NCBI GenBank assembly: GCA_016180425.1
Contig: JACPBF010000023.1
Coordinates: 1 to 57,110 of the forward strand
DNA: 57,110 nt
Direction: 5' to 3'
Source: Elusimicrobiota bacterium
GTDB lineage: Bacteria; Elusimicrobiota; Elusimicrobia; 2-02-FULL-39-32
Below, one piece after another: positions 3,587 through 27,987 of this stretch. The notes under the pieces were generated by a model, which was not told the origin of the DNA, did no database searches, and saw only the letters and a program-made list of their open reading frames with translations. Position numbers and translations under genes: made by a program. How positions within the stretch are numbered: position 1 is the stretch's first letter; the number at the start of each line of letters is the position of its first letter.

Positions 3587-3621
3587 TATTTAAAATTAAA
3601 TTTAATAATTTTTAATATTAT

Positions 3622-3635: not shown

Positions 3636-3664
3636 ATTATAGTATGAAAACTGAAAAATGTCAA
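3636..3664 (-). promoter_or_regulatory. Consensus sigma-70 promoter for hipBA
   Basis: On the minus strand a perfect -35 box TTGACA (3664-3659) is separated by exactly 17 bases from a perfect -10 box TATAAT (3641-3636). Predicted transcription start is near 3629, inside the operator at 3622-3633. The leader to hipB would be about 64 bases. Confidence 0.85.
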
Positions 3665-3815
3665 TTATTAAAGGAGGGATATTCTTACGGACCGTTGCGA
3701 AATTGGGTGAAAGATTTTGTATGAGATCATTGCAAGAATCTAGTGTACACTGATGCAATGGGTACATTTTTGTTAAAAAATTATGTTTAGCAACTGATAC
3801 TTCCTTGAAGGATTA

Positions 3816-10756: not shown

Positions 10757-11632
10757 ATGAGTTCTTTTGAACTGAGTCAGTCTAAAAAAATAGTTATGAG
10801 TTTGATTTTATCTTTAACAGCAAGTTTTCTATATGCCGCAAGCAGTAAAAATTCCATTCAAATTAAAGGATCAGACACTATGGTCAATTTATCTCAAGCC
10901 TGGGCAGAAAATTACATGGAAAAAAATCCAGGTGATTTTGTGGCTGTGACAGGCGGAGGGTCAGGAACCGGCATTTCTAGTTTGATAAGCGGTACTTGCG
11001 ACATTGCCAATACTTCTAGAAATATCAAAGAAAAGGAGATCGCCATTGCAAAGAAAAAAGGGATCGTGCCTTATGAAATTAAGGTTGGTTTGGATGGGTT
11101 AGCTGTTGTGGTAAATCCTCAAAATCCTGTTAAACAGTTGACAATGGGTCAGCTGGCTGATATTTTTACAGGTAAGATTTCTAATTGGAAGGAGTTGGGA
11201 GGAAAAGATTTAAAGATCGTGATCCTTTCTAGAGAAGTAAATTCTGGCACCCATGTTTATTTTAAGGAACATGTATTAAGAAAAGGAAATCTTTCTGGTA
11301 AGGAGGAGTTCGCTGCCAGCGCTTTAATGATGCCTTCCTCGCAAGCGATTGCGGATGAAATTGCAACCAATTCTGGAGCCATTGGTTATTATGGGTTGGG
11401 ATATATCTCTTCAAAGCAAAAGGCCATTTTTGTTGCCAAAGATGGAAAGTCAAAATCTATAGAGCCAACCACAGTAAATGTAATTACTGGCGCCTATCCT
11501 ATATCTAGACCATTGCTTATCTATACTGACGGCCAGCCTCAAGCTTTAATAAAAAAATTTGTTGATTTTATGCTCTCTAAAGAGGGGCAGGAGATTGTTC
11601 AAAAAACTGATTTTGTCCCTATCAAGAAATAG
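10757..11632 (+). CDS. pstS: Phosphate ABC transporter substrate-binding protein PstS
   Basis: 291 residues. Signal peptide 1-28 (LILSLTASFLYAA), without a lipobox Cys, so secreted rather than lipidated. Phosphate-binding motifs are visible: KGSDTM at 37-42, GGGSGTGISSL, the NTSRNIKEKE segment, and SREVNSGTHVYF. Strong Shine-Dalgarno AAAGGAGGA upstream. First gene of the pst set, 132 bases after the porin with no terminator seen between, so possibly co-transcribed with it. Confidence 0.95.
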   Translation: MSSFELSQSKKIVMSLILSLTASFLYAASSKNSIQIKGSDTMVNLSQAWAENYMEKNPGDFVAVTGGGSGTGISSLISGTCDIANTSRNIKEKEIAIAKKKGIVPYEIKVGLDGLAVVVNPQNPVKQLTMGQLADIFTGKISNWKELGGKDLKIVILSREVNSGTHVYFKEHVLRKGNLSGKEEFAASALMMPSSQAIADEIATNSGAIGYYGLGYISSKQKAIFVAKDGKSKSIEPTTVNVITGAYPISRPLLIYTDGQPQALIKKFVDFMLSKEGQEIVQKTDFVPIKK

Positions 11633-11634
11633 TT

Positions 11635-12501
11635 GTGCAAAAATTTAAAGAGTTTATTATAGAAAAACTTATCCTGATTTCAGGATTAGCTTCAATTTTT
11701 TTTGTAATACTTATCTTTTTATTTTTGTTGAAAGAAGGGCTTGCCTTATTTAAGTTCGTAAATCCAGGACAGTTCCTTTTCGGAAAAAATTGGTATCCAA
11801 TTTCAGAGCCCGCTCAATTAGAGATTTTACCCTTAATTTTAGGATCTCTTTTAGTAACTTTGGGCGCTGCGGTTATTTCTATCCCGATTGGAGTGGGTTG
11901 CGCTATTTTTATTGCTGAAGTTTCACCCCCCAGCATCAAAGAGATTTTAAAAGCTGGGATAGAACTTCTAGCAGCTATCCCCAGCGTTGTGCTGGGGTTT
12001 ATTGGCATGGTGACTTTAGTCCCTTGGGTAAAAAATATTTTTCAACTACCAACAGGTTTAACAGCGGTTTCAGGTTCCATCATGTTAGCTTTTATGGCCA
12101 TGCCCACCATAGTTTCCATTGCAGAAGATGCGCTCTATTCTGTTCCTAAATCTTATAAAGAGGGCGCTTTAGCTTTAGGATCTACAAAGTGGCAGGCTAT
12201 TTATCGTGTTCTTCTGCCAGCAGCCTCTTCTGGAATTTTTGCGGCTGTCATGTTAGGTTTAGGAAGAGTGATTGGTGAAACCATGGCAGTGATGATGATT
12301 ACTGGTAACGCCGCAGTCATTCCTAAAAGCATTTTACAACCTGTTAGGACACTGACAGCAACTATTGCTGCTGAAATGGGTGAAGCTGTTGTTGGCAGTG
12401 AACATTACTTTGCCTTATTCGCTATTGGAATTGTGCTTTTTGTTGTAAGTTTTATGATCAATGTAACTGCGGATCTATTTTTACATAGAAAAAAAATCTA
12501 A
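11635..12501 (+). CDS. pstC: Phosphate ABC transporter permease PstC
   Basis: 288 residues with about six membrane helices. The start is GTG, two bases after the pstS stop. The cytoplasmic coupling (EAA) motif is at EGALALGSTKWQAIYRVLLP, and AAIPSVVLGFIG is the typical helix before it. It forms the membrane channel with PstA and overlaps the pstA start by one base. Confidence 0.95.
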   Translation: MQKFKEFIIEKLILISGLASIFFVILIFLFLLKEGLALFKFVNPGQFLFGKNWYPISEPAQLEILPLILGSLLVTLGAAVISIPIGVGCAIFIAEVSPPSIKEILKAGIELLAAIPSVVLGFIGMVTLVPWVKNIFQLPTGLTAVSGSIMLAFMAMPTIVSIAEDALYSVPKSYKEGALALGSTKWQAIYRVLLPAASSGIFAAVMLGLGRVIGETMAVMMITGNAAVIPKSILQPVRTLTATIAAEMGEAVVGSEHYFALFAIGIVLFVVSFMINVTADLFLHRKKI

Positions 12502-13346
12502 TGAATTCTAAAAAAACAGAAAAAATCGCTTTTTTTGTTTTATTTTTGGCAACATTGCTTATTATTTTGCCTGTGGGTCTGGTTGTTTGCATTATTATCC
12601 AAAAGGGTTTTCCCGCAATGACCTGGCAGTTTTTAACTGATATTCCTCGTCAAGGAATGCGGGCTGGCGGCATCTTTCCAGCGCTTGTTGGAACCATTTA
12701 TATTGTTTTTGGCGCGATTCTTTTTGCTTTGCCCATTGGATTGGGAGCTGCGATCTATTTAAGCGAATATACTAAAGAACATTTTCTAAATCGTTTGATT
12801 AAATTAGCCATTGTAAATTTAGCAGGCGTGCCCTCTGTGGTTTACGGTCTTTTTGGTTTTGCATTTTTTGTGATTTTTTTTAAATTTGGAGCTTCCATTT
12901 TGTCGGGTTCACTTACCCTGGCGATCATGATTTTACCAATTATTATTACTGCCTCGCGCGAAGCTTTAGAGAGCGTGCCCTACTCTTTTCGCGAAGTCAG
13001 TTATTCTTTAGGGGCTAGCAAATGGCAAACGATCAGGCATATTGTTCTGGGCAACGCAATTCCCGGAATTCTCACAGGCACTATTTTAGGGGTAGGACGC
13101 GCTGCAGGTGAAACTGCTCCCATCCTTTTTACAGTTGCCGCATTCTATTTACCGCAGCTTCCTAAAACTATCTTTGATCAGGCAATGGCTCTGCCTTATC
13201 ATCTTTATGTTATTTCCACTCAAGTCCCAAATGTAGATGAAAAAATTAGGTATGGGACAGCTTTGGTTTTATTGATTTTGGTTTTTTTTATGAACTTGGT
13301 CGCTATTGTTATTCGTACCCAATTTAGGAAAAAAAAGAAATGGTAA
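12501..13346 (+). CDS. pstA: Phosphate ABC transporter permease PstA
   Basis: 281 residues, six membrane helices. Coupling motif EVSYSLGASKWQTIRHIVL, preceded by AGVPSVVYGLFG, as in the PstA family. The ATG uses the last base of the pstC stop (TAATG), and the end overlaps pstB1 by seven bases, indicating tight translational coupling. Confidence 0.95.
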   Translation: MNSKKTEKIAFFVLFLATLLIILPVGLVVCIIIQKGFPAMTWQFLTDIPRQGMRAGGIFPALVGTIYIVFGAILFALPIGLGAAIYLSEYTKEHFLNRLIKLAIVNLAGVPSVVYGLFGFAFFVIFFKFGASILSGSLTLAIMILPIIITASREALESVPYSFREVSYSLGASKWQTIRHIVLGNAIPGILTGTILGVGRAAGETAPILFTVAAFYLPQLPKTIFDQAMALPYHLYVISTQVPNVDEKIRYGTALVLLILVFFMNLVAIVIRTQFRKKKKW

Positions 13347-14086
13347 AAATTAAAATAGAGGTTCTCAATATTTGGTTTGATGCTTTTCAGGTTTTAAAGG
13401 AAATAAATTTAGAAATTTATGAAAATGAGATATTAAGCATTATTGGGCCATCCAATAGCGGCAAAACCACTTTTTTAAGAATGTTGAATCGCATGAATGA
13501 GTTGGAGAATGGTTTTAAAATGACTGGGAGAGTAGAACTGGATCATAAAAATATTAAAATGTTGGATGCGCAATTTTTGCGCAAAAAAGTTGGGATGGTC
13601 TTTGCCCTGCCTCTTCCTCTGCCGCTGACGATTTTTGAAAATGTGGCCTATGGAGCTAGAATCCATGGAGAAAAAAATAAAAAAAATTTAGAAAAGATCG
13701 TGGAGGAAGCTTTAAAAAAAGCATATCTTTGGGAGGAGGTTAAAGATCGTCTAAACACATCCGCATTTAAATTGTCAGGAGGCCAGCAACAACGGCTTTG
13801 CATAGCAAGAACACTGGCTGTTGAACCTGAACTGCTTTTATTTGACGAGCCTTGTTCCGGACTGGATCCCATCTCCACAGCAAAAGTTGAACAGGCTATG
13901 CTGGAATTAAAAGAGAGTTATACGATCGTATTGGTGACCAATAACGTTAAACAGGCTGCAAGAGTGGGAGATAGAACCGCATTTTTTTTAAATGGAGAAC
14001 TGATTGAAATTGACAAAACAGCTAAGATGTTTACCGCGCCTTTAGATAAGCGCACGGACGACTATATTAGAGGTAAATTTGGATGA
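13340..14086 (+). CDS. pstB1: PstB paralogue 1, ATPase with degenerate Q-loop and H-loop
   Basis: 248 residues. Walker A GPSNSGKT (36-43), signature LSGGQ (145-149) and Walker B with catalytic Glu170 (LLLFDE) are intact. The Q-loop Gln expected in VGMVFQ is Ala89, followed by an odd LPLPLPL run in place of the usual RPNPFP. The switch His of VTHN is Asn201 (VTNN). Family knowledge: these residues couple ATP hydrolysis to transport. With pstB2, which has the opposite losses, it should form a heterodimer in which this protein supplies the intact signature to the active site. It overlaps pstA by seven bases and pstB2 by four. Confidence 0.92.
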
Positions 14087-14838
14087 GCTCTAAAATAAAT
14101 GTAAACCAATTAAATCTCTGGTACAGCGATTTTCATGCTCTTAAAAATATTCAAATTGCCATTGAAGAAAAACAGATCACTGCGATCATTGGTCCTTCGG
14201 GTTGCGGAAAATCCACTTTGCTTCGTGTCTTTAACCGAATGAATGATTTAGTGGAAGGGGTGAGGATGCAAGGAGAGGTTTTTATTGATGGCATGAACAT
14301 CTTAGATTCAAAGACCGATTTGGTGACTTTACGAAAAAGAGTGGGAATGGTGTTTCAACGTCCAAATCCTTTTCCTCTTTCTATTTATGAAAATGTCGCT
14401 TTTGGCCAGAGAATTCACAACCATATAACTAAAAATTCTTTGGATGAGATTGTGGAAAGGTGTTTAAAATGTGTGCTTCTCTGGGATGATTTAAAAGACA
14501 AGCTTCATAAGTCAGCTCTTCATCTGTCATTGGAACAGAAACAAAGGCTTTGTATCGCCAGGCTTTTGGCTGTAAAACCTGATCTATTGCTTATGGATGA
14601 GCCTTGTTCTGCCTTAGATCCCCAGTCCACAGCTAGAATTGAAGAACTTATGCGTGAACTTAAAACTGATTACACTATTATTATAGTTACGCATAATATG
14701 CAGCAGGCAGCAAGAATTTCTGATCGGACCGCTTTTCTTCTTTTAGGCGAATTAATTGAACATGGCACGACCAGTAAAATATTTACTAATCCGACAAAAA
14801 AGGATACCGAAGATTATATTTCCGGCAGGTATGGATAA
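14083..14838 (+). CDS. pstB2: PstB paralogue 2, ATPase with degenerate signature motif
   Basis: 251 residues. Walker A GPSGCGKS (37-44), Q-loop Gln92 (VFQRPNPFP), Walker B and catalytic Glu173 (LLLMDE) and switch His204 (VTHN) are all canonical. The ABC signature is LSLEQ at 148-152 instead of LSGGQ. The C-terminal ISGRYG ending is typical of PstB. Paired with pstB1 it would provide the catalytic face of the single consensus ATP site. ATG overlaps the pstB1 stop (ATGA). Confidence 0.93.
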
Positions 14839-14930
14839 TTTTTAGAAAAATTTTTAAAAAAATATAGAAGAAAAAAAGCTGCAAATGTTTTCATGGTTTT
14901 AAAAGCAGTTTATATGAGAGGTGTCATTAA

Positions 14931-15590
14931 ATGAAAAGTCATATTGAAGAAGAAATAAGCAGCATCAAAGAAAAAGTTCTTTATATGGGAAGTTTGGCTG
15001 AAGAGATGATTTCTTTATCCGCCAAGATATTAAATGAAAGAAATCAGGAATTGTGCAGCCAAGTGCTGGAAAGAGAAGAAAAGATCAATAAATTACAAAT
15101 GGAAATTGATGAGATAGGAGTAAAAATATTAGCCCTCTATCAGCCAGAAGCAACTGACTTAAGAACCATTATGGCAGCCACTAAAATCAATTCAGAGCTA
15201 GAACGGGTTGCAGATCAAGCGGTTAATATTGCCCAGACTTCCTCGTTCCATTTTTTAAAAGAGAGTCCCATCGCGCCTATCTATGAGGTTCCTAAGATGT
15301 CCTCTATTGCTCAGGAAATGGTTAAGCAAAGTTTAGATGCTTTTGCAAAACGGGATGTGGAACTTGCCAAGAGTGTATTAGAGAAAGATGAAGAGCTAGA
15401 CACCTTAAAATCTAAAGTTTTTGAGGATGTTTTAGATTTGGTTAAGAATTCTCCTTTAAAGGCAAAACAATTTATTGATCTTATTTTAATTTCCAGGAAT
15501 TTAGAAAAGATTGGGGATCATGCCACGAATATTGCTGAGGATGTCATTTACATGGTCTTGGGAAAAGATATCCGCCACCATGCCGCTTGA
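14931..15590 (+). CDS. phoU: Phosphate signalling/transport regulator PhoU
   Basis: 219 residues, the usual PhoU length. Two repeated three-helix units (about 1-110 and 115-215) contain the paired acidic metal-binding segments ATKINSELERVADQAVNIA and ISRNLEKIGDHATNIAEDV. It links Pst transporter state to PhoR. It lies 92 bases after pstB2 and ends the module, before the terminator at 15694. Confidence 0.95.
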   Translation: MKSHIEEEISSIKEKVLYMGSLAEEMISLSAKILNERNQELCSQVLEREEKINKLQMEIDEIGVKILALYQPEATDLRTIMAATKINSELERVADQAVNIAQTSSFHFLKESPIAPIYEVPKMSSIAQEMVKQSLDAFAKRDVELAKSVLEKDEELDTLKSKVFEDVLDLVKNSPLKAKQFIDLILISRNLEKIGDHATNIAEDVIYMVLGKDIRHHAA

Positions 15591-15693: not shown

Positions 15694-15735
15694 CAATATT
15701 TCCAGACTTTTAAGTCTGAAAATATTGTTTTTTCT
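15694..15735 (+). terminator. Intrinsic terminator after the pst-phoU genes
   Basis: A long stem, CAATATTTCCAGAC paired with GTCTGAAAATATTG with one mismatch, around a TTTTAA loop and followed by TTTTTTC. The stem is AT-rich but long. It stands in the 328-bp gene-free stretch 15591-15918, which otherwise holds only the Pho-box-like repeat and the leader of the giant gene. Confidence 0.8.
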
Positions 15736-15918: not shown

Positions 15919-18900
15919 ATGGAATACCAGTTAAAGAAAAAAAGATTTAGTTGGTTCAAAAAAATATTTGCTTCTTCACTATCTTTATTTTTTATCTATT
16001 CAATTATTGTTCCCCCGTTTGCAGAGGCAATGATTTGGCAAGAAAGAAGAGACGCGGCTCTGCGACTTAAAGAAAAAAACCACGAGCAAAAATTAGCAGG
16101 CGAGGAGGAGTGGGGTCTAAAGGATCTTCCTTTACAATTAGCCAAGCTGCCGCATGCGCCTTCTTTATCCCTGCCATTTGAAAAAGGTTCATCAATAAGT
16201 GAAACCCTTAACAGTTTAAAATCTCAGCCGCTTCCTTTTGTAAAACTGCCGGAATTGCCAGTGGTTTTGCCTCTTCAATTCTCTAATTTTAAGCGCGCTT
16301 ATTTTCCTCCTAAATGGAAAACAACTGACCCGCTTATTTTACATATTCAGGATGCGCATCAAAATGAGGAAGCTCAAAAAAATATAGCCAATTCTCTCAA
16401 AGCTTTGATCATCCAAGAAAAGATTAGTTTTGTAGGTTTAGAAGGCGCTTTTGAAACCATTCCCCTCTCTAATTTCCGTAGTTACAAAGATCAAGAATCA
16501 GTGCGCAAAGTGGCTGATTACCTGCTTAAAGAAAATAAAATCTCAGGAGCCATTCACACTGCGCTTACCAGTTCAAAACCTATTCCTAAATTTATTGGAA
16601 TTGACGATTCAAAACTTTACCATCAGCATGTTCAGGCTTATAAAGAATCTGTAGCAGTAGCTGAAAACTTAAAAATTGCCCTTGAACGAAAAAAATTACA
16701 AATTTTTCAAATAAAGGAAAAAATTTATAACCCAAAACTTTTAGCCTTAGATCAAAAGGTTGAATCTTACCGGAAACATGAAATTCGGCTGGGAGAATAT
16801 CTGAAAGCGCTTACAGAAGAGCAAAAGAAAGTTTCGCAGGAAATCAGCGTATTTAGAAAAACTCTGGAGATGGAGGAGAAATTGGATTTTGTTCAGGTAG
16901 AGAGTGAGCGCAAAGCCATGATTCAGATTTTAGTCCAGAAACTCTCTCCTCCCCAAATGAATCAGCTCCTTAAAAACAGCGTGGCTTATCGCTTAGGCCA
17001 CATACAACATGCTGCTTTTTATGATTATCTCATCCAACTCTGTAAAAATTCAGGTATTGATTGCAAAGCATATCCCGCAATGGAGGCTTATATCCGTTAT
17101 ATTCTGGCAGCAGAAACTATTTCCGCTGATAAGTTAATAGTTGAATTAAAGCAGATGGAAAGATCAGCTTATGAATCTCTTTCCCAGAGTGAGCAAGAAA
17201 AGAATTTGGTTGCCCAATCTTATGAGCTTTATCTTACAGAAAAGCTGCTTAAATTTGAAATGGGTCCTGAAGAATGGAGAGAATATAAAAATTTTTCTAT
17301 TTCAAATGAACTATCAGAGACTAAAAAAGTTGCTTCTTTCTATGAAGTTGCCATCTTGAGGGATGAAGCGATGTCTGCGCATTTGCTGAAGAGCATTGCC
17401 CAGAGAGATGCTAAAGTAGCAGTCTTTATTACCGGCGGATTCCATTCCCAAGGCATGGAAGAGCTTCTTAAAAAATCGAATGTAGCAGTCATCACCCTTG
17501 CTCCAAAAATAACGAGAATTGAATCTGAAAAGGGGACAGAGTATCTATCTGTTTTTACTCAAGAGAAAACTCCTTTAGAGAAGCTCTTTGATGGAGAAAA
17601 ACTTTTTGTTTCTCAACTGATGTGGCCAGATCGAGTGCGCTTATTTGCGGCAAGTCTGATTGCCTCATTTGATCCAGCCAATGCGCAAATTATTTTTTAT
17701 TCTTTAACTGGATCACTGGGCATCAAATTTAAAATAGAAGTTCAGCTATTAAGCGATTATTTAAGACGCGTTATTTTAAAAAAAGTGGAAGAAAAAGTTG
17801 CTTATGATATTAATTTATCCAAAGACAGGAAAAAAATCCAGAGTGTAGAGCGAATGGACGCTTCACCCATTGGATTTGTGCCTCATTTGCGATCCAATGC
17901 AAAGAAGTTTGCGCACTCGGTTGGTAAGGCAAAGGTTTCTGCTAGAAAGTTGAGTCACACAGTTGGAAAACTGAGGATTTCTGCAAGAAAAAGTATTACA
18001 AAGAGAGCTTCTGGCTTTGTAAAAAGAGGTGGAATAACTCTTACAACCGCAAGTAGTTTAGGACTAGCTTCTAAACATTTAATTGTCTATGAATGGTTTC
18101 AACGATTGTCCTCATCTAAAAACAGTTTTGCAGAGAACCTATCTAAAATAATAGTTCTTTCCTATGCAGCTCTTTTAGTTGCTCCATCCCAAGAATTTAA
18201 CCCCATCGAGCAGGATTATAGAACTTTTCTTTCTAAACAACACAGCTATAGCCCGGGTTGGAGAGGCGCTTTAGAGTTTACGGTTCGTTGGATGGGGCTT
18301 GGATTCATACGAATGAACATGGCGCTTTTTGGTTTCATGGCTCAAGGAATTTCCCTTCTAGTAAGGAAGCAAGTTGACCAGAATAGCGCCAGAAGAAACG
18401 CGCATTTTGTTTCCCACTTGCTTGTAAATCTTGTTTTTTTGCCATTCCATCTATTTGCTTTTCACTTTGCGCTCGCTTCAGATGAATCAGCAGGTGATGA
18501 AGTTGCCAAGATTGTTGAAGGCATGATAACGGATGTCAATGCACGAGAAATGGATTTAGGCCCTCTTAGCATAGACCATTCAGGAGAGTTTATGGATGTT
18601 TTCATACCTTCTGATCCAAAAATTCCCTATGTTATTAAAGTTCCAAAAAAGGATTTGAATAAAGTGCTGCAAGGATATGCGCTTTCAAAAAAATATTTGG
18701 GAGGAATTTCTGCACCCATGAGCTTGCTGCGTAATGTGCATTTGGTCATTGATGGTAGAACCGTGTTTTATGAGTTCGTCATACTACAGGAAAAAGCGAC
18801 TCTTTTGAACAGACCTTTTAAAAGCAAAAGGGTTTCTTTAAAAGCTAAAAGAGCTCTGATTGATTCTGTTTATCAATTGGAAAAAGAGATGTATTCAAGA

Positions 18901-21900
18901 GGCATCCACAATCCAGATCATAAGATAAACCAATCTTACGGCCTGGATAGTAATGGCAATGTGGTTCTGACTGATTTTAGCCATCTTTCTATTCTTATGC
19001 ATGAATTTTATCCAAAGGTCCATGATGACAGCATGGATATGCTTAAGTATAACAGGAATTTTTTTAGCGCCATTTCTCCAGAGCTAAGTGATCACTATGA
19101 TTTTAGACAGGTGAGGAATGATGAGTTTCAGATTTTTTGGAATACTCAACTTTCAAACAGAAAACCAACTAAAGATATCAAGCCTATTTTTAGGGATCGC
19201 CTTTTTGAAACCGGACTTTTCATGGGAGTTCGGGAACTTTCTCCTGAATCCTCCGGCGCTTTCACTGGGCAGACTTCAAAAGCTTTAGCCTTGAATGTAG
19301 GCGCTTCTTATGCCTTGATTCCAGATCCAAAAAAAGGATCAAGCAGCCTTTCAGGTGAAACCAACTTAACAGTGGCTCGAAAAATCCAAAGAGCAGTTAA
19401 AGGCAAAGGAGAAACTTTAGCTCCTATTATTGTGGTAAGCATATCTGAAGAAGATTTGAAGAGAGATGATAAAGGAAATTTGAAAGGAGAGAGTCTGGAA
19501 AATCGTTTTAGAAGAGAGTACCGGGAAAAGCTTATGGGTTTTGTCAATCAGCCTCAGGCTCTTAGAAATGCAGCTATTGTTCCTCAAGTAATAGATAAAG
19601 CAGGAAATCCAATTCTTCTTTCTAAAGAGGATGCGCATAGGTTCTATAGCGCTGCAAGTTATGCTCTTTACCCTCTCTTAAGAGCAAAAGGAGAGATTGC
19701 TCAAGCTTCAGAACCACACTTGCGCCAACTTTTTCAAGAGGGAGCTGATCGGGTTAGAATTCTCTTAGGAGGGAAAACTCCAGAACGCTCAGAACTTGTG
19801 GATTATCTTAAAAAATTAGCGCATGAGGTAGATGGTATATTCATCGGCTCAGAAACAGTTGCTAAAGATCCATACGGAATCCAAAAAATGTTAGAGATAA
19901 TTTCTAAATTTTACCATGCGCGCGCCCCAACTCCTGTGGGAGCTCTCCGCGGGCCTCCCATGACAGTAGTTGACTTCACAAAAATTCATGGAAATAGTTC
20001 CATACAAGCTGCAGCAACCATTCAATCCGCCCTAGCAGAAAATCCAAATTTAAGAGAAATGACAACTGTTTTAATTCCCGCAAACCTGGATTTAGACCGA
20101 GTTGGAAGTGTACTATCAGAATATAAACTATTTAATCCCGGACAACAGGCCGAACCTACTAACCTCCATTTTGCTCTTCAGGATTTGGAGGATTTTTCTG
20201 ACCCATATCTAGCACAAGTAAAAAGGGATGGATATACCTATGTTCTGATGGGTCACTCAGAAGTCCGACGATTTTTTGGAGTAGGAGATTCTACCGTCAA
20301 TGAACAGGCCTTGGCTGTGATCCGCAATGGTTTAATTCCTGTCATTGCCATAGGTGAGAGAAATCGCGCCCAAGGAGACTGGAAAAAGGGTTTACACAAG
20401 CAAACCAAAACAGTGTTAGCCGGGATCAGTTTAAGGGATTTGCCAAAAATTAAAATTGCTTATGAGCCTATTGATTTTATTGGTTCTGGAACAAGCATGT
20501 CCGCGGATCAGATGCAGGAGGCGAATCAAATTATTGCAGGAGCGATCAGAGAACATATTAAGGAACAAGGAGGCGCTTCTCTTTTAGAATCTGATCCAAT
20601 TCCTGTTGGGATACTTTATGGAGGAAGCGTAAAACCCTCTTCAGTTTATGGCCAAAGCGGTGGATGGGAAAGACGCACATGGCTTTCTTTATTAAGAAGG
20701 TTGCCGGAAGTGATTGGGGGTTTAATTGGAACTAGAAGCATTATACCAGGAGATCCAGATCGAATTTCAGATCGTTTTGCTGAAAATGTATTAGCCAAAG
20801 GAAAAGCGGTTCGAGGGCTTTCCGGAGGCAACTGGAAAATGAATATCCATACTTTAGAAGATGCTGTGCGCAGGGCAGAAGCATTTTCCAAAAATATCAG
20901 GAAAAATCGTTGGAAAGGGGAGTTTTTCTTTGCTGTGCCAGCTTCCATGGGAGGAGCATTGGCAGGAAGATTTCGTGGGAAATATGCTCCAACTTCAATA
21001 AAACCTTTGGAATGGACTGGCAGGCAAAAAGCGATCAATCGCGCAACCAATGAATTTTGGAACTCATGGGAAGATGAGAATCAATCTTCTTCTATTGAAT
21101 CTTTAAAACAAGCTCTTTATAAATTGCATGAACTTTATTCTGCAGATGAGCAACTTAAACGTCAGGGAGTTTCCTGGTATAAAATTTTTAGCCAGGCTCT
21201 TCTCTCCAACCTTTTTGCAAACAGCAAACGGCTCATTCCAGCTTCTCAAATTCTAATTAGTTTGCGCTATGCTCCTTTAAGATTTGCAACGGATCAAATC
21301 AAAGATGAAAAGGTTAAAGGGCTGATACAGGGTGTGGTGGGTGATAAAGGAACTTTTCATGATCTTGACAAAAGTCAATTAAGCGCTCTTTATTCAAAAC
21401 TTGCTAGACATTTCAAATTAACCGAATATGAATCGCTCCTATTGCGCCATGTTATTTGGCCAACAGAAATATTACGTTCTAACTATAGTCCTCAAGAATT
21501 TGAAGAAGTTCAGCGCTATTGGAATAGGCTTTTAGAGAATGCATCGCGGGCGCTCAAGGATGAAAATGTTCCTTTAGCTGGGAAAATTAGCGCCTTGTGG
21601 ATATTAAGGGATATCGCGCTCAATAGAAATTTAGACTCAATAGATTTTAAAATTTACTCAAAAGCGATCCTTGCCTTAGAGTCCGCTCCTTCACAACCAG
21701 GCATTCTTGGAAAAAATAAAAATGATATTTTACTGGAATTGCGTGGGATTGAGGATAAAATAAAATCTGACTCTTCTGAAAATCTGATCCTGAGTCTGAT
21801 GGAGGATTTAGCCTATGATAACCCGCCATTAGCTGAAGAGGTTCGGCGTTTAAAAAATCTATATCAGGAACTTCAAAGCGATTTGAGTTCAGACACTTCA

Positions 21901-24900
21901 GATGAAGAGATTAATTCAGCATTCTTTTTTAAACAGGGATTAACAGAATCAGCCTATCCCTGGGAAAGACAGATTGAGAGAAATTTAATGGAACTATCTG
22001 ATATTCTACAGGTAGAGAATGATCCATCCAGTTCAGTAAGGGATCCAAGGAACTTGAGAGAAATTCTTTTAGAAGAGATTTATTTTAGTCTTATTTGGGG
22101 TGGGATTAGACCTTATCTTATTCGGAAACTAAAACTTGCTCGAGATGAGAAAAAAGCTCCTGAGGCGCAGCCTGCGCAATTCAGCGCTAAAGATTTAGCG
22201 ATGCATCATCTTGCTCCGATCTTGGAAGATGAAAAAGATGAACCATATGAAGTTACCCTCATGCAACCAGTAGAGATTGTGTTAGATGTAGATGGCGCAT
22301 TTGGCAAGAGAGATAACTTGTCAATAAAAAATACAGCTGTACAAATTGTACGCAGAGCATTGGGAGATAAAAAAGGACAGGGGTTTAATCCTAATTTTGA
22401 GATATCAACTATCTATGGAATTAACAATGATAATGAGTTCCAGGCATTCTATGACCATTTAAAAGCTAATCCCTATCAAGGCAGGTTTCAGTTTGATCTA
22501 AAGCTTGATAAATTTCAGAGCAATAGTGAATGGATCATTTCCATCCATTTCCAAGGCCAGACTAAAACCATTGTAGTTAAACCTGGCAGATATGTTTCAC
22601 ACCCAACTGAGCCAAGAGATGTTATTTTTTTAACAGACCAATACCCAGATGATTTCTATGTTGATGATAGCCAACGACCTTGGCAAGAAGGAAGAATGGC
22701 GCATGTTCTAAATCCTGAACTGGATCCTCCCATAGAGATTAATTCAAAACCTCGTGCTCGCTATCACAATACAGGACTCACAACTGCTCTTTCCCCCCTT
22801 ATTGAGTATTTAGATGGAGCTCTTAACCATAAATTAAAACAATGGGAACTGATCTCAGTGGTTCCAGGTGAAAGCCATATCTTGCAGAAAAAATCAAATC
22901 AAGCAGCAAGAAACCTTCGACTCCATGGAGTTAAAATGGGTCAGGGCGAAAAATGGGAATCTCATACGCATGAAGGCGCAGGATATGTACAGTTAAATCT
23001 CATATTAGATGAAGGAATTCAAATGGATGTTGAAGGAATGATGGAAATTCTGAGGTCTGCCAATTTGCAAGGCTGGCCCATCTATTTTGCTGAAGGAGGC
23101 TGGATCCCTAATTCTATCAGCGTGCAAGAACATGATAAGCCTCTTATTTTAGATAAAAGTATTTCTGTGCAGGGGAATGGCCGTTTAGTGACTATTCGAG
23201 GATGGATTCCAGACTGGGTAGCAGCAGACAATATTTTGAAAGAGATTCAAAGCTCTGCTGAAAAACGGGAACAAGATGAGTTTGAAGATGACTTTTATCT
23301 GGAAACACTTAAACAAAGACAAGATAAATTTAGATTTAGCGCGCAACAAATTCCGCAGCATCCTGAAAAAATAGGAAAAAAGAGCGAACCAAAAATTCTT
23401 GGAATTTATGGAGGAGATGAAGTTGTTGCAGGACAATTAATTAAGCAGCTTCGCGGGAAAGAAGATATTATCCTTAAATATATCTATGTGGAAGAAACAA
23501 CGGAAAATCCTTTAGATACAAATGTTTTTGCAGCCTACTTGCGTCAAATCATGCCGCGCAGCGATATTGAGATCGCTCTTGATGGAGATTCAATCATTAT
23601 TAATCATTCTTCTCCAATTAAAATTATTTTTAGCAAAGCTCTTGGCAGTTTAAGAAAGGGAGAAAAAATAGATCCAAACAAAGTCCTTCCTAATTGGCAA
23701 AAACTTGGAATAGATACAGTAGTTTATGCTCATAAAGCAGCAGAAGGTCAAATTACTCCTGAACACCATCGGCAAATGGGAGCAAAAAATATTGTCATGG
23801 CAACTGATGAAATGACTCCTGTAGAGATGGCTGTAAATTTAACTCGAATAGCATTTGCTGATTTGGATCTGTTAGGTCATGTGGTCCATACCAATTCTGC
23901 TCTTGACCCTACTCGCGACAGGGGCCATGATATTGTGTTGGGCAGTAAAATCCTTCCGGCTCCCATGGCAAACCTTTTGCCTAAAGTAATGAAGAAAGGA
24001 TACCTTCAGGTACAATCCAGCCAATACGATGCGCATCTAACTGCAGTCACATTTACTTTGGATCGAAAGCTAACTAAAGAGGAGGTTATTTCAAGATTAA
24101 AAAAAGCGGCAGAGGCCTCCAGTTCTCGGCTTAAAGTTTTAGAGTCATACGATTCTTTGAGACCTAGTCTTGTGCAAGGGGAGAGCTCTATCTATTTTGA
24201 TCCTAGGAGTGTGATAGTGGATCATAGAACCGTAACAGTCCTATTTGGTTATGATTTTGCAAATGTTTGGGCAGCTGGTGTTTTGGATGTGGTTCAAGAT
24301 ACAGATAAGTATAAAAGAGATGAGTCTCCAGAAAGGGATAGAGAAAAATCTGTTTCTTCCTCTGACAGTGATAAAAAACCATTTAAAAGCGATAGAAAAA
24401 TGGTGACGGAAGGTGAAAGATATATCCCAGCGCCAGTAGCTAAACTAAAAAGAGAATCCACAGGAGTTTATAATAGAGCAGCTGTTGAAATTTCTGACAT
24501 TCCATTTGATTCAAATCAGCGGAATCCTTTGGATTATTTTGCATCCAGTCTAGTGATTGATCTTATGGGAGATGAGCGGCTCTCTGTTAATTTTTATGGA
24601 GTTAAAAATGTGCGGGATGTTTTGTTCCTTTATCATGCGATAAAGAAGCGTTTGCCTGAACATGTCCGCATCTATCTGGATGGTTTTGACGTAAAAAAAT
24701 TTGAAAAATATAAAAATGATTTTGAAGAACACGGTTATACCTACCTTTATATTCAAGGAGCTAAAATCAAAATCTCCAGCGAATCCATCCTTGAAAATCC
24801 AAAAATATTAAATGAGGATAACATTGATTCTATATTGGTCGTTAGTGACGATTTAAAGAATATGAACGCTTATGAGGCTTTAAAAGAGCCTTATCATCTC

Positions 24901-27900
24901 AATGGGGTACGGCATGTGCGTCCTTCTATGGATGGTTTGTTATTGCTTAAAAACTATTTAAAAGAATCTTTAGCTTTACGCGGTTTAGATGATACCAGTA
25001 TCCGCATATTTAGCACAGTGCCTTTGCGCAATTCAGAATTTGTTTTAGGTTATAGAACAGATGGTTATAGAGTTGAGACTCCCACTCGACTGGAAGGCGA
25101 TCTGCATAATTTTGTAATTGAATTTGATGAAGAGTTGGAAAGAGATGCGGTCATTGCTTTGGTTGGAGAAATGGTTAGGGCTTCTGGCGGAAGGATTGAA
25201 GTTACAGAAGAATCTTTAGCATCTTTAGATATGGTTGACAATCCAGTTTTAGCTATGATTAGCAAGCCTCAAATTACAGGAAAAGCACGGCTTTGGGCCA
25301 TTCCTATTTGGATGGGAGAATCAGGACTTGCTCAAGCGATGATTGAAAATTTAGCGCAAGATGCGGAAGATAATCCAGGGAATAGCAAAAATAAGAGGCA
25401 AACTGCAACTTATTCTATTCTTCCTTCTATAGTTCCTTTGAAACCCAAGCCCAGAATTAAAGAGATGAACGGAGGAAAAGCTGATCTAATCATTAGCGCT
25501 GTGGGAGGACGTACTGGCAAAAATATGCTTCTGGCAGCGATTGGGGATCCTAATGTAAATATTTTGGGAGTAACTCTCAATAAACCAACAGAAGAAAAAG
25601 TTATTGCTACTGCTAAGGCTTTGAATAACGATACTGTTTATGGAAGGCCTGGAATAAAATTTGAGTATGCTGGCTGGGATGATAAAACAAACACTTTTGT
25701 GATTTGGGCAGGGAATGATGAAAAAGGATGGCTTAGGATTGATGTTTTTGACGGCTCAAATCTTAGTGATTTGGAAAGACAAATTGCTGAATTAAGGGCA
25801 AAGGGTTACCATCCAATCTATCTGCATGCAGCAGGAAGCGGGTACCATCGTTTTAAAGAAAAAGATTGGTTTGAGATTCAGGGTGACATTATGATTTACG
25901 GCAATCCAGGAAAGGGAGAATCTCTTCTTGTGATTCCAGGGGCCATGGATTTGCAAAATAAGGCTCTGCAAGAGCTGATCCGAGCAGAGGAGATCTTGAC
26001 CCTTGGAAGTTGTACAACTGGCGCTTTGGCTGTTGCTCTTTATTTTATAAAGCATATGATAGATTTTGTTAGCGCTATTACTTTGCATGAACTTACCAAT
26101 GATCAAAGATTGAACCACGGACCTTTGCACGATGTAATGGAAAGAATGTTTGCCGCAGCCAGAACCATGCTCTTAAGCAGCTCCGGAGCTGGACAGACTA
26201 TTGGCAAAGCAATGCCTGAACTCATTGGAAGGACCACAGCTGTGGCTTTAAGAGAAGGATATGGCGGAGCTTCAGTTGTAAATGTAAGAATAAAATTAAA
26301 GCCTGAGTTTGTTGGGATTCCAACTGAAGATGTTAAAGAGATATTTCGTCAAGCTTATGAAAAGCCGGAAATGAGCGGAATTTTCCATCTGCACGACAAA
26401 CCCTATCCAATTGATTCTGATGAAGTTAAGGGGTATCACCATTCAAGCGTTTTGGATTTAAACAGCGTTCGAGTTAATGGAGAATTTTTATCTTTTGACG
26501 CGTGGTACGATAATGAACGGGGTTTTTCCAGCCGCATGATTGGCCTGGCAAAAATTCTTACCATCATCCGAAGGTCCGAAGGAAAAACAACTGCTTCTGC
26601 CACGCTCAATTTTGTAAGAGATTGGCTGCTCCCCCGCTGGTTTACCATTCAATATACAGCAGAAGAATATGTGAGAAAAGCTTCTTTAAGAGAAAATCTA
26701 TTCTTTATCTTAGCAGTTGCATCTGTGCTTGCCATCGGCAATCTCCTTTCATTGGTTTTTACAGGGAATGTTGCTGTTCCTTCATTTGAGAGATTCAATG
26801 GTTTAGTTTGGGGATCCTTTTGGCTTGCTCATTTGGCGGAATTTATTTATTTTAGAATTAAAGGTCAGCCAGAAAAAACTCCTTTTGGGAATCTGGCGGT
26901 TGCAGGTTTGGTGAGCGCAGTAAACATCTTTGTTTTGCCTCTTCTTACCTTAACTTTTTTCCATGCGCTTGGCCTGAATATTCCATGGCTGGAAAATTTA
27001 ACTGTCCTACTCCTTACATTTCCAACTCATCAGTTCGCCAACTATTTAGGCTCTGCTAAAGTTGGAAAAAGTCTTAAGGGGTCTAAAGAAATCCAAGTTT
27101 TAAAAAGTTCAAGTTCTAAAAGCAAACGAACTTCTTTAATTTCAGATGGTTTTGTGCGCGCAATAGTTGAGCTTAAAAAAGAGGAGCAACTGCATGGATT
27201 CCCAAATATGCAAAAAGTAGTCCCTGTGATCTTAGAGAACACTGCTCAATCTTTAGATGTCCAAACTGTTCTTGGGGATAAAGGAATATCTAATCCTGCT
27301 TTAGATCTTCTTAAGGCAGTGGATAATCCAAAAGAATTTTATAAAGAGTTGGGAGAAAAGTGGCAGGAAGAGACTGGCAGCACAATGTCTCCTAGAGAAA
27401 TGAACCGTTCTCTAACCCAGGTTGTTTTGGCAGGATTTAAGAATGAAAATATCCAAAATGTTCTTGTAAAGTCTAAGATGGAAGATTATTCCAGCACTGC
27501 GGCTCTCTTGGATCGTTCAGTCAAAAATAAAGTCAAATATGCAGAGCAAATTATCTCCGCGTATCATCTTGAGCGCAAAGGTGTTTCTAATTCCAGACTT
27601 TTCATCTTAAGCGGTGATTTATCTAACGCCGAGATTTGGGCCATCAATCGTCTTGCTGTTAAGAGAGGAATTAGCCTTGAAATTAAAACTGATCCAAGAC
27701 TGATAAAATTTGCTGAAGGGAATTATTCTTTAGATCCAGCTGTTTTGGATGAAATCGTGGGAACTGTACGGCAAGAAACCTCAGTTCCTTTAAGATTGCT
27801 CATCCCAAGAAATTTGGTTGGCAATCTAAAAGAGTTGTTGGACAATATTGAACAGTATGAAAATTTAAAGAATGCTGTGATTAGTTTTCTTAGCTTGATT

Positions 27901-27987
27901 GGCAACTCATTGAATGCCACACCGCTTCTGGATAGCAATATGCAAGACGATATTCAAGAAATAGGAGTCTTCGCGGAACAGCAATAA
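15919..27987 (+). CDS. Giant secreted/membrane protein built from TIM- and GAPDH-derived modules
   Basis: 4022 residues in one uninterrupted frame, with AGGAGA six bases before the ATG. Signal/anchor at 1-36 ending PPFAEA. Residues about 140-530 hold LHIQDAHQN, GLEGA and TGGFHSQGME, resembling TraB/ChaN/Tiki-type proteins. A basic duplicated segment at 664-700 is followed by hydrophobic stretches to about 850. Residues 880-1040 are protein-kinase-like (VIKVPKK at 905, HNPDHKIN near 996, then LTDF). Residues 1113-1700 contain TIM-derived segments and 2115-3550 four GAPDH-derived modules, listed separately. A helical region (about 1700-2110) separates them. Residues about 3590-3715 have four probable membrane helices, and 3720-4022 is a soluble tail of unknown type. 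It is transcribed alone, after a terminator and a Pho-box-like repeat. Large composite secreted proteins are known from Omnitrophota. Function unknown. Confidence 0.8.
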   Translation: MEYQLKKKRFSWFKKIFASSLSLFFIYSIIVPPFAEAMIWQERRDAALRLKEKNHEQKLAGEEEWGLKDLPLQLAKLPHAPSLSLPFEKGSSISETLNSLKSQPLPFVKLPELPVVLPLQFSNFKRAYFPPKWKTTDPLILHIQDAHQNEEAQKNIANSLKALIIQEKISFVGLEGAFETIPLSNFRSYKDQESVRKVADYLLKENKISGAIHTALTSSKPIPKFIGIDDSKLYHQHVQAYKESVAVAENLKIALERKKLQIFQIKEKIYNPKLLALDQKVESYRKHEIRLGEYLKALTEEQKKVSQEISVFRKTLEMEEKLDFVQVESERKAMIQILVQKLSPPQMNQLLKNSVAYRLGHIQHAAFYDYLIQLCKNSGIDCKAYPAMEAYIRYILAAETISADKLIVELKQMERSAYESLSQSEQEKNLVAQSYELYLTEKLLKFEMGPEEWREYKNFSISNELSETKKVASFYEVAILRDEAMSAHLLKSIAQRDAKVAVFITGGFHSQGMEELLKKSNVAVITLAPKITRIESEKGTEYLSVFTQEKTPLEKLFDGEKLFVSQLMWPDRVRLFAASLIASFDPANAQIIFYSLTGSLGIKFKIEVQLLSDYLRRVILKKVEEKVAYDINLSKDRKKIQSVERMDASPIGFVPHLRSNAKKFAHSVGKAKVSARKLSHTVGKLRISARKSITKRASGFVKRGGITLTTASSLGLASKHLIVYEWFQRLSSSKNSFAENLSKIIVLSYAALLVAPSQEFNPIEQDYRTFLSKQHSYSPGWRGALEFTVRWMGLGFIRMNMALFGFMAQGISLLVRKQVDQNSARRNAHFVSHLLVNLVFLPFHLFAFHFALASDESAGDEVAKIVEGMITDVNAREMDLGPLSIDHSGEFMDVFIPSDPKIPYVIKVPKKDLNKVLQGYALSKKYLGGISAPMSLLRNVHLVIDGRTVFYEFVILQEKATLLNRPFKSKRVSLKAKRALIDSVYQLEKEMYSRGIHNPDHKINQSYGLDSNGNVVLTDFSHLSILMHEFYPKVHDDSMDMLKYNRNFFSAISPELSDHYDFRQVRNDEFQIFWNTQLSNRKPTKDIKPIFRDRLFETGLFMGVRELSPESSGAFTGQTSKALALNVGASYALIPDPKKGSSSLSGETNLTVARKIQRAVKGKGETLAPIIVVSISEEDLKRDDKGNLKGESLENRFRREYREKLMGFVNQPQALRNAAIVPQVIDKAGNPILLSKEDAHRFYSAASYALYPLLRAKGEIAQASEPHLRQLFQEGADRVRILLGGKTPERSELVDYLKKLAHEVDGIFIGSETVAKDPYGIQKMLEIISKFYHARAPTPVGALRGPPMTVVDFTKIHGNSSIQAAATIQSALAENPNLREMTTVLIPANLDLDRVGSVLSEYKLFNPGQQAEPTNLHFALQDLEDFSDPYLAQVKRDGYTYVLMGHSEVRRFFGVGDSTVNEQALAVIRNGLIPVIAIGERNRAQGDWKKGLHKQTKTVLAGISLRDLPKIKIAYEPIDFIGSGTSMSADQMQEANQIIAGAIREHIKEQGGASLLESDPIPVGILYGGSVKPSSVYGQSGGWERRTWLSLLRRLPEVIGGLIGTRSIIPGDPDRISDRFAENVLAKGKAVRGLSGGNWKMNIHTLEDAVRRAEAFSKNIRKNRWKGEFFFAVPASMGGALAGRFRGKYAPTSIKPLEWTGRQKAINRATNEFWNSWEDENQSSSIESLKQALYKLHELYSADEQLKRQGVSWYKIFSQALLSNLFANSKRLIPASQILISLRYAPLRFATDQIKDEKVKGLIQGVVGDKGTFHDLDKSQLSALYSKLARHFKLTEYESLLLRHVIWPTEILRSNYSPQEFEEVQRYWNRLLENASRALKDENVPLAGKISALWILRDIALNRNLDSIDFKIYSKAILALESAPSQPGILGKNKNDILLELRGIEDKIKSDSSENLILSLMEDLAYDNPPLAEEVRRLKNLYQELQSDLSSDTSDEEINSAFFFKQGLTESAYPWERQIERNLMELSDILQVENDPSSSVRDPRNLREILLEEIYFSLIWGGIRPYLIRKLKLARDEKKAPEAQPAQFSAKDLAMHHLAPILEDEKDEPYEVTLMQPVEIVLDVDGAFGKRDNLSIKNTAVQIVRRALGDKKGQGFNPNFEISTIYGINNDNEFQAFYDHLKANPYQGRFQFDLKLDKFQSNSEWIISIHFQGQTKTIVVKPGRYVSHPTEPRDVIFLTDQYPDDFYVDDSQRPWQEGRMAHVLNPELDPPIEINSKPRARYHNTGLTTALSPLIEYLDGALNHKLKQWELISVVPGESHILQKKSNQAARNLRLHGVKMGQGEKWESHTHEGAGYVQLNLILDEGIQMDVEGMMEILRSANLQGWPIYFAEGGWIPNSISVQEHDKPLILDKSISVQGNGRLVTIRGWIPDWVAADNILKEIQSSAEKREQDEFEDDFYLETLKQRQDKFRFSAQQIPQHPEKIGKKSEPKILGIYGGDEVVAGQLIKQLRGKEDIILKYIYVEETTENPLDTNVFAAYLRQIMPRSDIEIALDGDSIIINHSSPIKIIFSKALGSLRKGEKIDPNKVLPNWQKLGIDTVVYAHKAAEGQITPEHHRQMGAKNIVMATDEMTPVEMAVNLTRIAFADLDLLGHVVHTNSALDPTRDRGHDIVLGSKILPAPMANLLPKVMKKGYLQVQSSQYDAHLTAVTFTLDRKLTKEEVISRLKKAAEASSSRLKVLESYDSLRPSLVQGESSIYFDPRSVIVDHRTVTVLFGYDFANVWAAGVLDVVQDTDKYKRDESPERDREKSVSSSDSDKKPFKSDRKMVTEGERYIPAPVAKLKRESTGVYNRAAVEISDIPFDSNQRNPLDYFASSLVIDLMGDERLSVNFYGVKNVRDVLFLYHAIKKRLPEHVRIYLDGFDVKKFEKYKNDFEEHGYTYLYIQGAKIKISSESILENPKILNEDNIDSILVVSDDLKNMNAYEALKEPYHLNGVRHVRPSMDGLLLLKNYLKESLALRGLDDTSIRIFSTVPLRNSEFVLGYRTDGYRVETPTRLEGDLHNFVIEFDEELERDAVIALVGEMVRASGGRIEVTEESLASLDMVDNPVLAMISKPQITGKARLWAIPIWMGESGLAQAMIENLAQDAEDNPGNSKNKRQTATYSILPSIVPLKPKPRIKEMNGGKADLIISAVGGRTGKNMLLAAIGDPNVNILGVTLNKPTEEKVIATAKALNNDTVYGRPGIKFEYAGWDDKTNTFVIWAGNDEKGWLRIDVFDGSNLSDLERQIAELRAKGYHPIYLHAAGSGYHRFKEKDWFEIQGDIMIYGNPGKGESLLVIPGAMDLQNKALQELIRAEEILTLGSCTTGALAVALYFIKHMIDFVSAITLHELTNDQRLNHGPLHDVMERMFAAARTMLLSSSGAGQTIGKAMPELIGRTTAVALREGYGGASVVNVRIKLKPEFVGIPTEDVKEIFRQAYEKPEMSGIFHLHDKPYPIDSDEVKGYHHSSVLDLNSVRVNGEFLSFDAWYDNERGFSSRMIGLAKILTIIRRSEGKTTASATLNFVRDWLLPRWFTIQYTAEEYVRKASLRENLFFILAVASVLAIGNLLSLVFTGNVAVPSFERFNGLVWGSFWLAHLAEFIYFRIKGQPEKTPFGNLAVAGLVSAVNIFVLPLLTLTFFHALGLNIPWLENLTVLLLTFPTHQFANYLGSAKVGKSLKGSKEIQVLKSSSSKSKRTSLISDGFVRAIVELKKEEQLHGFPNMQKVVPVILENTAQSLDVQTVLGDKGISNPALDLLKAVDNPKEFYKELGEKWQEETGSTMSPREMNRSLTQVVLAGFKNENIQNVLVKSKMEDYSSTAALLDRSVKNKVKYAEQIISAYHLERKGVSNSRLFILSGDLSNAEIWAINRLAVKRGISLEIKTDPRLIKFAEGNYSLDPAVLDEIVGTVRQETSVPLRLLIPRNLVGNLKELLDNIEQYENLKNAVISFLSLIGNSLNATPLLDSNMQDDIQEIGVFAEQQ
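19255..21030 (+). repeat. Triosephosphate-isomerase-derived array within the giant gene
   Basis: Copy A (about residues 1113-1330) starts in mid-barrel at GAFTGQTSKAL and ends at DGIFIGSET. The catalytic His region is replaced. Copy B (1348-1615) is a whole barrel: Lys1355 in FTKIHGN, His1446 in GHSEVRR, Glu1516 in AYEPIDFIG, YGGSV at 1567 and GGLIGT near 1600. The His-to-Glu spacing of 70 equals that of canonical TIM. Copy C (1636-1700) holds only the N-terminal strand and helix, GGNWKMN with Lys1640, before a helical insert. Copy B could be catalytically active; A and C look decayed or structural. Confidence 0.8.
22261..26565 (+). repeat. Four tandem GAPDH-derived modules within the giant gene
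   Basis: Module 1 (residues about 2115-2445) has DHLKANPYQGRF and ends RLVTIRGWIPDWVAADNIL, echoing the family's SWYDNEWGYSNR. Module 2 (about 2490-2795) has LGIDTVV, GAKNIVMAT and ends VLFGYDFANVWAAGVLD. Module 3 (about 2888-3150) is the most diverged, ending IPIWMGESGLAQ. Module 4 (3185-3548) is well conserved: AVGGRTGKN nucleotide loop, Cys3365 in GSCTTG, His3390 in TLHELTNDQ, SSGAGQTIGK and AWYDNERGFSSR. Only module 4 keeps the catalytic Cys-His pair. Modules were assigned by eye; a profile search would confirm boundaries. Confidence 0.75.

Follow-up and report, generated by a model that had tools for sequence, protein, structure and literature searches.

In a 57,110-nucleotide window of the Elusimicrobiota bacterium assembly GCA_016180425.1 (contig JACPBF010000023.1, analysed over its whole length), our work here describes a giant open reading frame (ORF) of 4022 residues in which segments of triosephosphate isomerase (TIM) and then of GAPDH follow an export-type N-terminus. 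We think it probable that the family of giants to which this protein belongs, itself probably exported, captures cytosolic enzymes as payload and keeps an intact unit beside decayed partners that are still under selection. In the architecture that we propose for these Elusimicrobiota giants, the chain would open with a signal-like N-terminus, continue with a ChaN/Tiki-like domain and then carry captured ordinary cytosolic enzymes; in the window giant the payload would consist of TIM, arranged as two permuted barrels, and then of a GAPDH array of at least two modules, the decayed module 2 and the last, module 4.

The 4022-residue protein described by the first-pass annotation, a model's reading of the letters, proved to be real. 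Its frame is conserved in the sister species L006 (Elusimicrobia bacterium RIFCSPLOWO2_02_FULL_39_32) as a 4084-residue homolog, also in a single frame, and the ratio of nonsynonymous to synonymous substitution rates (dN/dS) between the two is 0.19 over the whole ORF, which marks a maintained protein. PF00121 (TIM) matches the giant in two stretches with an E-value of 1.5e-32 (113.5 bits against a cut-off of 20.1); taken piece by piece, residues 1080–1340 (segment A) alone give 2.8e-7 and residues 1340–1720 (segments B and C) 4.7e-29. With hhalign, profiles built from 23 GAPDHs and 4 TIMs of the phylum return E-values of 2.2e-6, 2.7e-21 and 0.00095 for TIM segments A, B and C and of 1.4e-6 and 4.1e-22 for GAPDH modules 2 and 4, reversed controls being never better than 0.098, and matches to solved structures agree on the presence of TIM and GAPDH. 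To explain the array by chance similarity, a pseudogene or an assembly artefact, one could appeal only to the weak scores of GAPDH modules 1 and 3; set against the profile E-values and the same build in one open frame of the sister, that explanation has next to no probability, and for A, B and modules 2 and 4 it is refuted. Along its full length, a 2567-residue query is matched only in the window's own genome (G000; 2,599,882 bases in 43 contigs) and in G001, among 80 related genomes, and the part holding GAPDH modules 1–3 is matched at length only in the same two of 294 phylum genomes.

The residues that the first-pass annotation had singled out (Lys1355, His1446 and Glu1516 in TIM, Cys3365 and His3390 in GAPDH) sit where it placed them, and one TIM-derived and one GAPDH-derived copy do keep their catalytic residues. 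Of its three TIM copies, A and B are recovered by profiles, with strands b3–b8 in A and an unbroken b1–b8 in B; C is genuine too but holds only b1–b2. The claim that B is by itself the intact TIM fared less well. We scored b1–b2 in glocal and local mode with a profile built from 18 TIMs of cytosolic type, among which two pairs each represent a single gene, against 56157 null windows taken from other giants and from reversed windows. This null, like those of the other TIM and GAPDH window scans, contains no forward windows of the giant itself but includes reversed windows of every frame kept, and it omits a 680-residue frame (L107) that overlaps the giant. The b1–b2 of C reaches a glocal score of 33.9, above every null window (maximum 25.6), and is above all of them locally as well, while its counterpart in the sister is matched by nine null windows glocally and by none locally. 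The b1–b2 of B, which carries Lys1355, scores -15.2, a value reached by 25412 null windows and thus the null median, and the corresponding block in the stretch upstream of A scores -8.6 (10621 null windows).

Divergence from the sister sorts the segments in the same way. Changes number 34 of 238 in A and 9 of 63 in B b1–b2, against 10 of 206 in B b3–b8 and 5 of 67 in C (Fisher p 0.0005 for unit 1 against unit 2, and 0.02 for B b1–b2 against B b3–b8), and dN/dS follows with 0.245 for A, 0.306 for B b1–b2, 0.077 for B b3–b8 and 0.182 for C. The conserved halves thus pair with each other, as do the decayed halves, which fits two permuted barrels. This sequence evidence is best explained if the region is a tandem pair of circularly permuted barrels, a decayed one made of A b3–b8 and B b1–b2 and a site-complete one made of B b3–b8 and C b1–b2. 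His1446, Glu1516 and a lysine, either Lys1640 or Lys1355, are present for an active site, and the lysine appears better assigned as Lys1640, so that Lys1640, His1446 and Glu1516 would form one site if the two barrels assemble as we suppose. That both units break at the same point is compatible with duplication, which for TIM agrees with the internal duplication proposed in the first-pass annotation.

Alternatively, the region could be a plain array of three TIM copies in normal order, with A and C truncated, B intact with Lys1355, and no permutation in the fold. The unbroken b1–b8 of B and the native spacing of Lys1355, His1446 and Glu1516 suit such an array, and in G001 the Pfam TIM match spans model positions 15–213 through B; a match beginning at position 15 means that B does have a TIM-like b1–b2 of its own. 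We nevertheless rate the plain array as rather unlikely, with B b1–b2 at the null median and C far above it, and with divergence pairing B b1–b2 with A and C with B b3–b8. Besides the G001 match, several results pull against the permuted reading: the direct contrast of B b1–b2 with C b1–b2 is not significant (p 0.26), and C taken alone is weak (its hhalign E-value carries a probability of 22%, and its HMMER domain E-value is 0.096). AlphaFold2 models from two-row alignments are of low confidence for both arrays and leave no usable structure (pLDDT 39.7 for residues 1085–1765 and 30.6 for residues 2105–3180).

A lone permuted TIM in a giant of another genome, G021, also speaks against the plain array. 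This giant (L037, contig C160) is a frame of 2770 residues cut by the contig end, in which TIM columns 63–241 lie at residues 868–1066 and are followed by columns 2–53 at residues 1092–1143. None of the 56157 null windows scores as high glocally as its b1–b2; locally, 180 of them do, and the HMMER value is 0.025, which tempers the case. The G021 TIM keeps the K, H and E motifs, and the genome, at 81% completeness, shows no other TIM match. If the permutation is true, these would be natural circularly permuted triosephosphate isomerases, found in two giants of different families, and the three-part array of the window would look like an intermediate of the kind that duplication and truncation should produce.

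In the GAPDH region, the four modules claimed by the first-pass annotation reduce to two with statistical support. Module 4 matches Gp_dh_C at an E-value of 2.6e-18 and GAPDH-I (TIGR01534) over residues 3197–3541 at 3.2e-30; its 105.5 bits remain under the equivalog cut-off of 367.2, so that we file it as a homologous domain and not as an enzyme. It keeps the catalytic motifs SCTTG, with Cys3365, and LHELT, with His3390, as well as three further landmarks (Arg, Ser/Gly, WYDNE). When 3309 windows were scanned glocally, the null being formed by other giants and reversed windows, the z-scores came to 17.4 for module 4 and 7.7 for module 2, as against 0.5 for module 1 and -0.2 to 0.9 for module 3. 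Taken whole, modules 1 and 3 yield hhalign E-values of 0.13–0.22 and stay at shuffle level against an extended GAPDH profile. Their best half-domain scores, uncorrected for several tests, come from the C-halves, reached by 0.0008 of null windows for module 1 (extended profile) and by 0.008 for module 3 (canonical profile), and these two modules appear at most suggestive. When two-row profiles of modules 1–4 were compared with each other, none rose above the null, so internal duplication found no support for GAPDH, and in the TIM and GAPDH domain trees the giant branches, at 4–10 changes per column, are too long to decide between single and multiple origin.

The decayed copies are under purifying selection, as the dN/dS values of 0.11–0.31 for A, B b1–b2 and modules 1–3 support; the intact parts lie at 0.06–0.18, the most constrained being B b3–b8 and module 4 (0.06–0.07). 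Since both enzymes are oligomers, TIM dimeric and GAPDH tetrameric, the decayed units could persist as covalent, built-in partners of the intact unit, an idea of pseudo-subunits that becomes testable where decayed copies under purifying selection stand beside an intact one. The intact units may have kept the ability to bind triose phosphates at the outer face of the membrane and might even convert them; such conversion would be the triose-phosphate metabolism outside the cytoplasm that the first-pass annotation had raised as a possibility. The genome of the window giant also holds separate tpiA-like and gapA-like genes (334.5 and 221.8 bits), for which that annotation had proposed a check.

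Selection on several decayed copies would equally suit a non-catalytic scaffold or adhesin that uses enzyme folds as ready-made binding domains, the active-site residues then reflecting ancestry or ligand binding. Moonlighting at the cell surface is known for TIM, GAPDH, enolase, PGAM and aldolase alike, and the altered NAD motif of module 4 would suit a scaffold as well. Reviews on surface-moonlighting proteins are available (PMC4009768, PMC8385298), and an adhesin role is proposed for giant ORFs of Omnitrophota in the part of the report accessible to us (PMC10066038). Such a scaffold is possible, if doubtful, given that module 4 and TIM B b3–b8 are the most constrained parts and keep catalytic residues and that the TIMs of the G021 and G114 giants keep the K, H and E motifs.

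The glycolytic theme of the first-pass annotation is strengthened by an independent giant in G114, a genome of another class of the phylum. This 5387-residue protein (L138/L139, G114:C18:9959-26119), which has a signal-like start and the motifs of the N-terminal domain, matches TIM (2.6e-49, with K, H and E motifs kept), GAPDH C (1.3e-17) and N (2.4e-7), enolase (1.7e-69 and 2e-36), a PGAM-like histidine-phosphatase domain (9.8e-16) and two class II aldolase domains (2.9e-24 and 3.4e-80); a second, decayed GAPDH C-half precedes the better one. Judged by these domain matches, it presents a fuller glycolytic set than the window protein. Its PGAM-like part reads SASGN at what we take to be the place of the second catalytic histidine. 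Enolase, PGAM and aldolase, sought in the window giant and 32 other giants, were found only in G114, and a search of the other 75 of the 76 genomes in the family of G114 found no full-length relative of its giant. In all four pairs seen (TIM and GAPDH in the window, GAPDH and aldolase in G114), too few to weigh, it is the decayed copy that stands first. In its most far-reaching form, the proposal would make these proteins secreted single-chain glycolytic machines (TIM, GAPDH, enolase, PGAM, aldolase, as consecutive enzymes outside the cytoplasm) in which every active unit is paired with a decayed copy standing in for the absent subunit of its oligomer, and with a naturally permuted TIM, the window ORF being a duplication-and-truncation intermediate; this we regard as unlikely.

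The reading of the giants as carriers of captured enzymes with built-in partners is weakened at several points. A general rule of built-in dimers is at odds with the G114 giant, whose TIM and enolase are single copies, and GAPDH modules 1 and 3 remain unproven. In module 4, VGGRTG at residues 3195–3200 replaces the GxGxxG of the NAD motif, and the N-half is weakly recognised (0.0055–0.028 of null windows). Among the giants of G000 that were scanned with Pfam, 5 of 14 show no family over cut-off and one more only NHL repeats. Hydropathy, finally, allows anything from one to three passes before TIM in the window protein.

The export signal that the first-pass annotation had noted is borne out by an export-type N-terminus, similar in the paralogs of the window giant. 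The ChaN/Tiki-like domain that follows carries IQDAHQNEEAQKNI at residue 143, LEGA at 174 and ITGGFHSQG at 504, and PF04187 matches residues 1–1080 at an E-value of 3.3e-6, its 27.7 bits equalling the cut-off of 27.7 (25.2 bits when the whole protein is searched). The giant family reads IQDxH where ChaN has GExH. Between this domain and TIM A, the one to three hydrophobic segments would allow TIM and GAPDH to face the cytoplasm, where NAD+ and triose phosphates are found: an odd number of passes after the ChaN-like domain would yield a membrane-tethered cytosolic glycolytic module. We hold this to be quite improbable. Loop 816–833 is basic and the flank after residue 852 acidic in the hydropathy survey, and the loop, oriented by the positive-inside rule, favours two passes with TIM and GAPDH outside; moreover, in the G114 giant the chain runs from the signal-like start to TIM without a hydrophobic segment.

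Residues 100–1090 of the window giant find matches in 57 of 294 phylum genomes, where scoring covered no more than two candidates in each. The matching frames often run to thousands of residues, the longest reaching 11603. G000 alone has 22 open frames with the giant N-terminal domain, totalling 81,313 codons or 9.4% of genome bases, although one of them (C21:63347) rests on a 74-residue match and several are cut by contig ends. A hydrophobic segment starts within the first 30 residues in 16 of the 22, and the pattern IQDxH...QxNI recurs in 17 of them and in 11 of 12 giants of other genomes. The Pfam scan covered 14 of the 22, two of these in part, and found enzyme or housekeeping families over cut-off in eight, the TIM/GAPDH giant included; the payloads of the other seven are SecA with DnaJ; PP2C; UDPGP; three ARMT1-like domains with APH and PrmA; ABC1 with APH and M48; ABC1 with M48; and FBPase with a glutamate-type dehydrogenase. 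The TIM and GAPDH models matched none of 33 other giant-locus frames. Among the matches listed, TIM occurs in frames of more than 1000 residues in G000, G001 and G114 of the 294 genomes, a tally from per-genome counts and a second look at 19 genomes, and also in G021, which comes from another sample. Captured cytosolic enzymes in ordered glycolytic sets offer concrete, testable hypotheses for giant-protein function.

TPI-GAPDH fusion proteins are described from stramenopiles and other protists (PMC3527533) and, in the accessible part of that report, resemble the window giant in placing TIM before GAPDH in one polypeptide behind an N-terminal targeting signal. They are eukaryotic and have mitochondrial targeting, whereas the window giant is bacterial, bears an export-type signal over 4022 residues, and differs further in its extra decayed copies, its TIM of apparently permuted order, its ChaN/Tiki-like domain and membership of a giant family. 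Published accounts describe huge proteins as a frequent feature of Elusimicrobiota, Omnitrophota and related phyla, and as poorly annotated or characterised (PMC11573180, PMC12057145, PMC10066038); as far as the accessible text of these reports goes, they share with the window giant very long ORFs that are common in the phylum, but are given adhesion or carbohydrate domains or few domains, and captured enzymes, whether glycolytic or housekeeping, go unmentioned. Our literature search returned nothing on captured glycolytic enzymes in bacterial giants, weak evidence in that preprints and most subscription journals lay outside its scope, and no natural permuted triosephosphate isomerase, again weak evidence, judged mostly from titles. 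On the permuted reading, the window giant would share the strand order b3–b8–b1–b2 with circularly permuted TIM barrels, of which the reviewed examples, in the portions available, are designed barrels.

Table 1. Features of the giant ORF and of its upstream flank (positions in the window; residues numbered in the giant).
Feature	Position	Strand	Basis
Terminator-like inverted repeat then T run, between PhoU-like gene and giant gene	15694..15735	+	by eye
Giant ORF, 4022 aa, ATG start	15919..27987	+	4084-aa homolog in L006
Putative export-type signal, residues 1-37: basic start, hydrophobic core 16-34, PFAEA, then IWQERR	15919..16029	+	
ChaN/Tiki-like N-terminal domain, residues ~130-540	16306..17538	+	PF04187, family search, motif survey
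Two hydrophobic segments (797-815, 834-852), basic loop between; third, weaker, 737-755	18307..18474	+	hydropathy only
TIM segment A, b3-b8, residues 1093-1330; active-site His and Glu lost	19195..19908	+	profiles
TIM b1-b2 at start of B, with Lys1355, residues 1348-1410; heavily decayed; grouped with A in permuted unit 1	19960..20148	+	
TIM B b3-b8, residues 1412-1617; His1446, Glu1516, YGGSV at 1567	20152..20769	+	
TIM segment C, b1-b2, residues 1634-1700; GGNWKMN at 1636, Lys1640; assigned to unit 2 with B b3-b8	20818..21018	+	
Candidate GAPDH module 1, residues 2115-2485, unproven	22261..23373	+	
GAPDH module 2, residues 2488-2793; lacks the catalytic Cys (MATDEM in place of the expected SCTTN)	23380..24297	+	
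Candidate GAPDH module 3, residues 2869-3150, unproven; strongly conserved, dN/dS 0.11	24523..25368	+	
GAPDH module 4, residues 3187-3550; Cys3365 and His3390 kept; GxGxxG reads VGGRTG	25477..26568	+	
C-terminal hydrophobic segments 3595-3613, 3659-3677, weaker 3683-3701	26701..27021	+	hydropathy

Elsewhere in the window giant, residues 1720–2150 (window 21076–22368) have no Pfam match and a dN/dS of 0.30, and residues 3550–3760, around the C-terminal hydrophobic segments, a dN/dS of 0.56 against the sister. Its paralogs in G000 include a 5253-residue protein (L103, contig C42) that combines SecA motor domains with a DnaJ domain, a 10901-residue protein with three ARMT1-like domains and APH and PrmA-like matches (L101-L102, contig C18), and a 6930-residue protein (L113, contig C33) with FBPase and Glu/Leu/Phe/Val dehydrogenase domains within the first 4500 residues, the part scanned. 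The G021 giant further shows a weak match to histidine phosphatases (PGAM-like) and, near its end, one to HGLS.

The genes directly upstream of the giant on the same strand, at window 10757–15590, resemble a phosphate transport set: they encode a PBP-like protein, two permeases, two ABC ATPases and a PhoU-domain protein. Co-transcription with these genes was set aside, the terminator-like repeat intervening, although a G+C-requiring terminator scan listed none; the giant is probably not part of the upstream operon. Genes of 251 and 219 residues precede the giant in L006 too.

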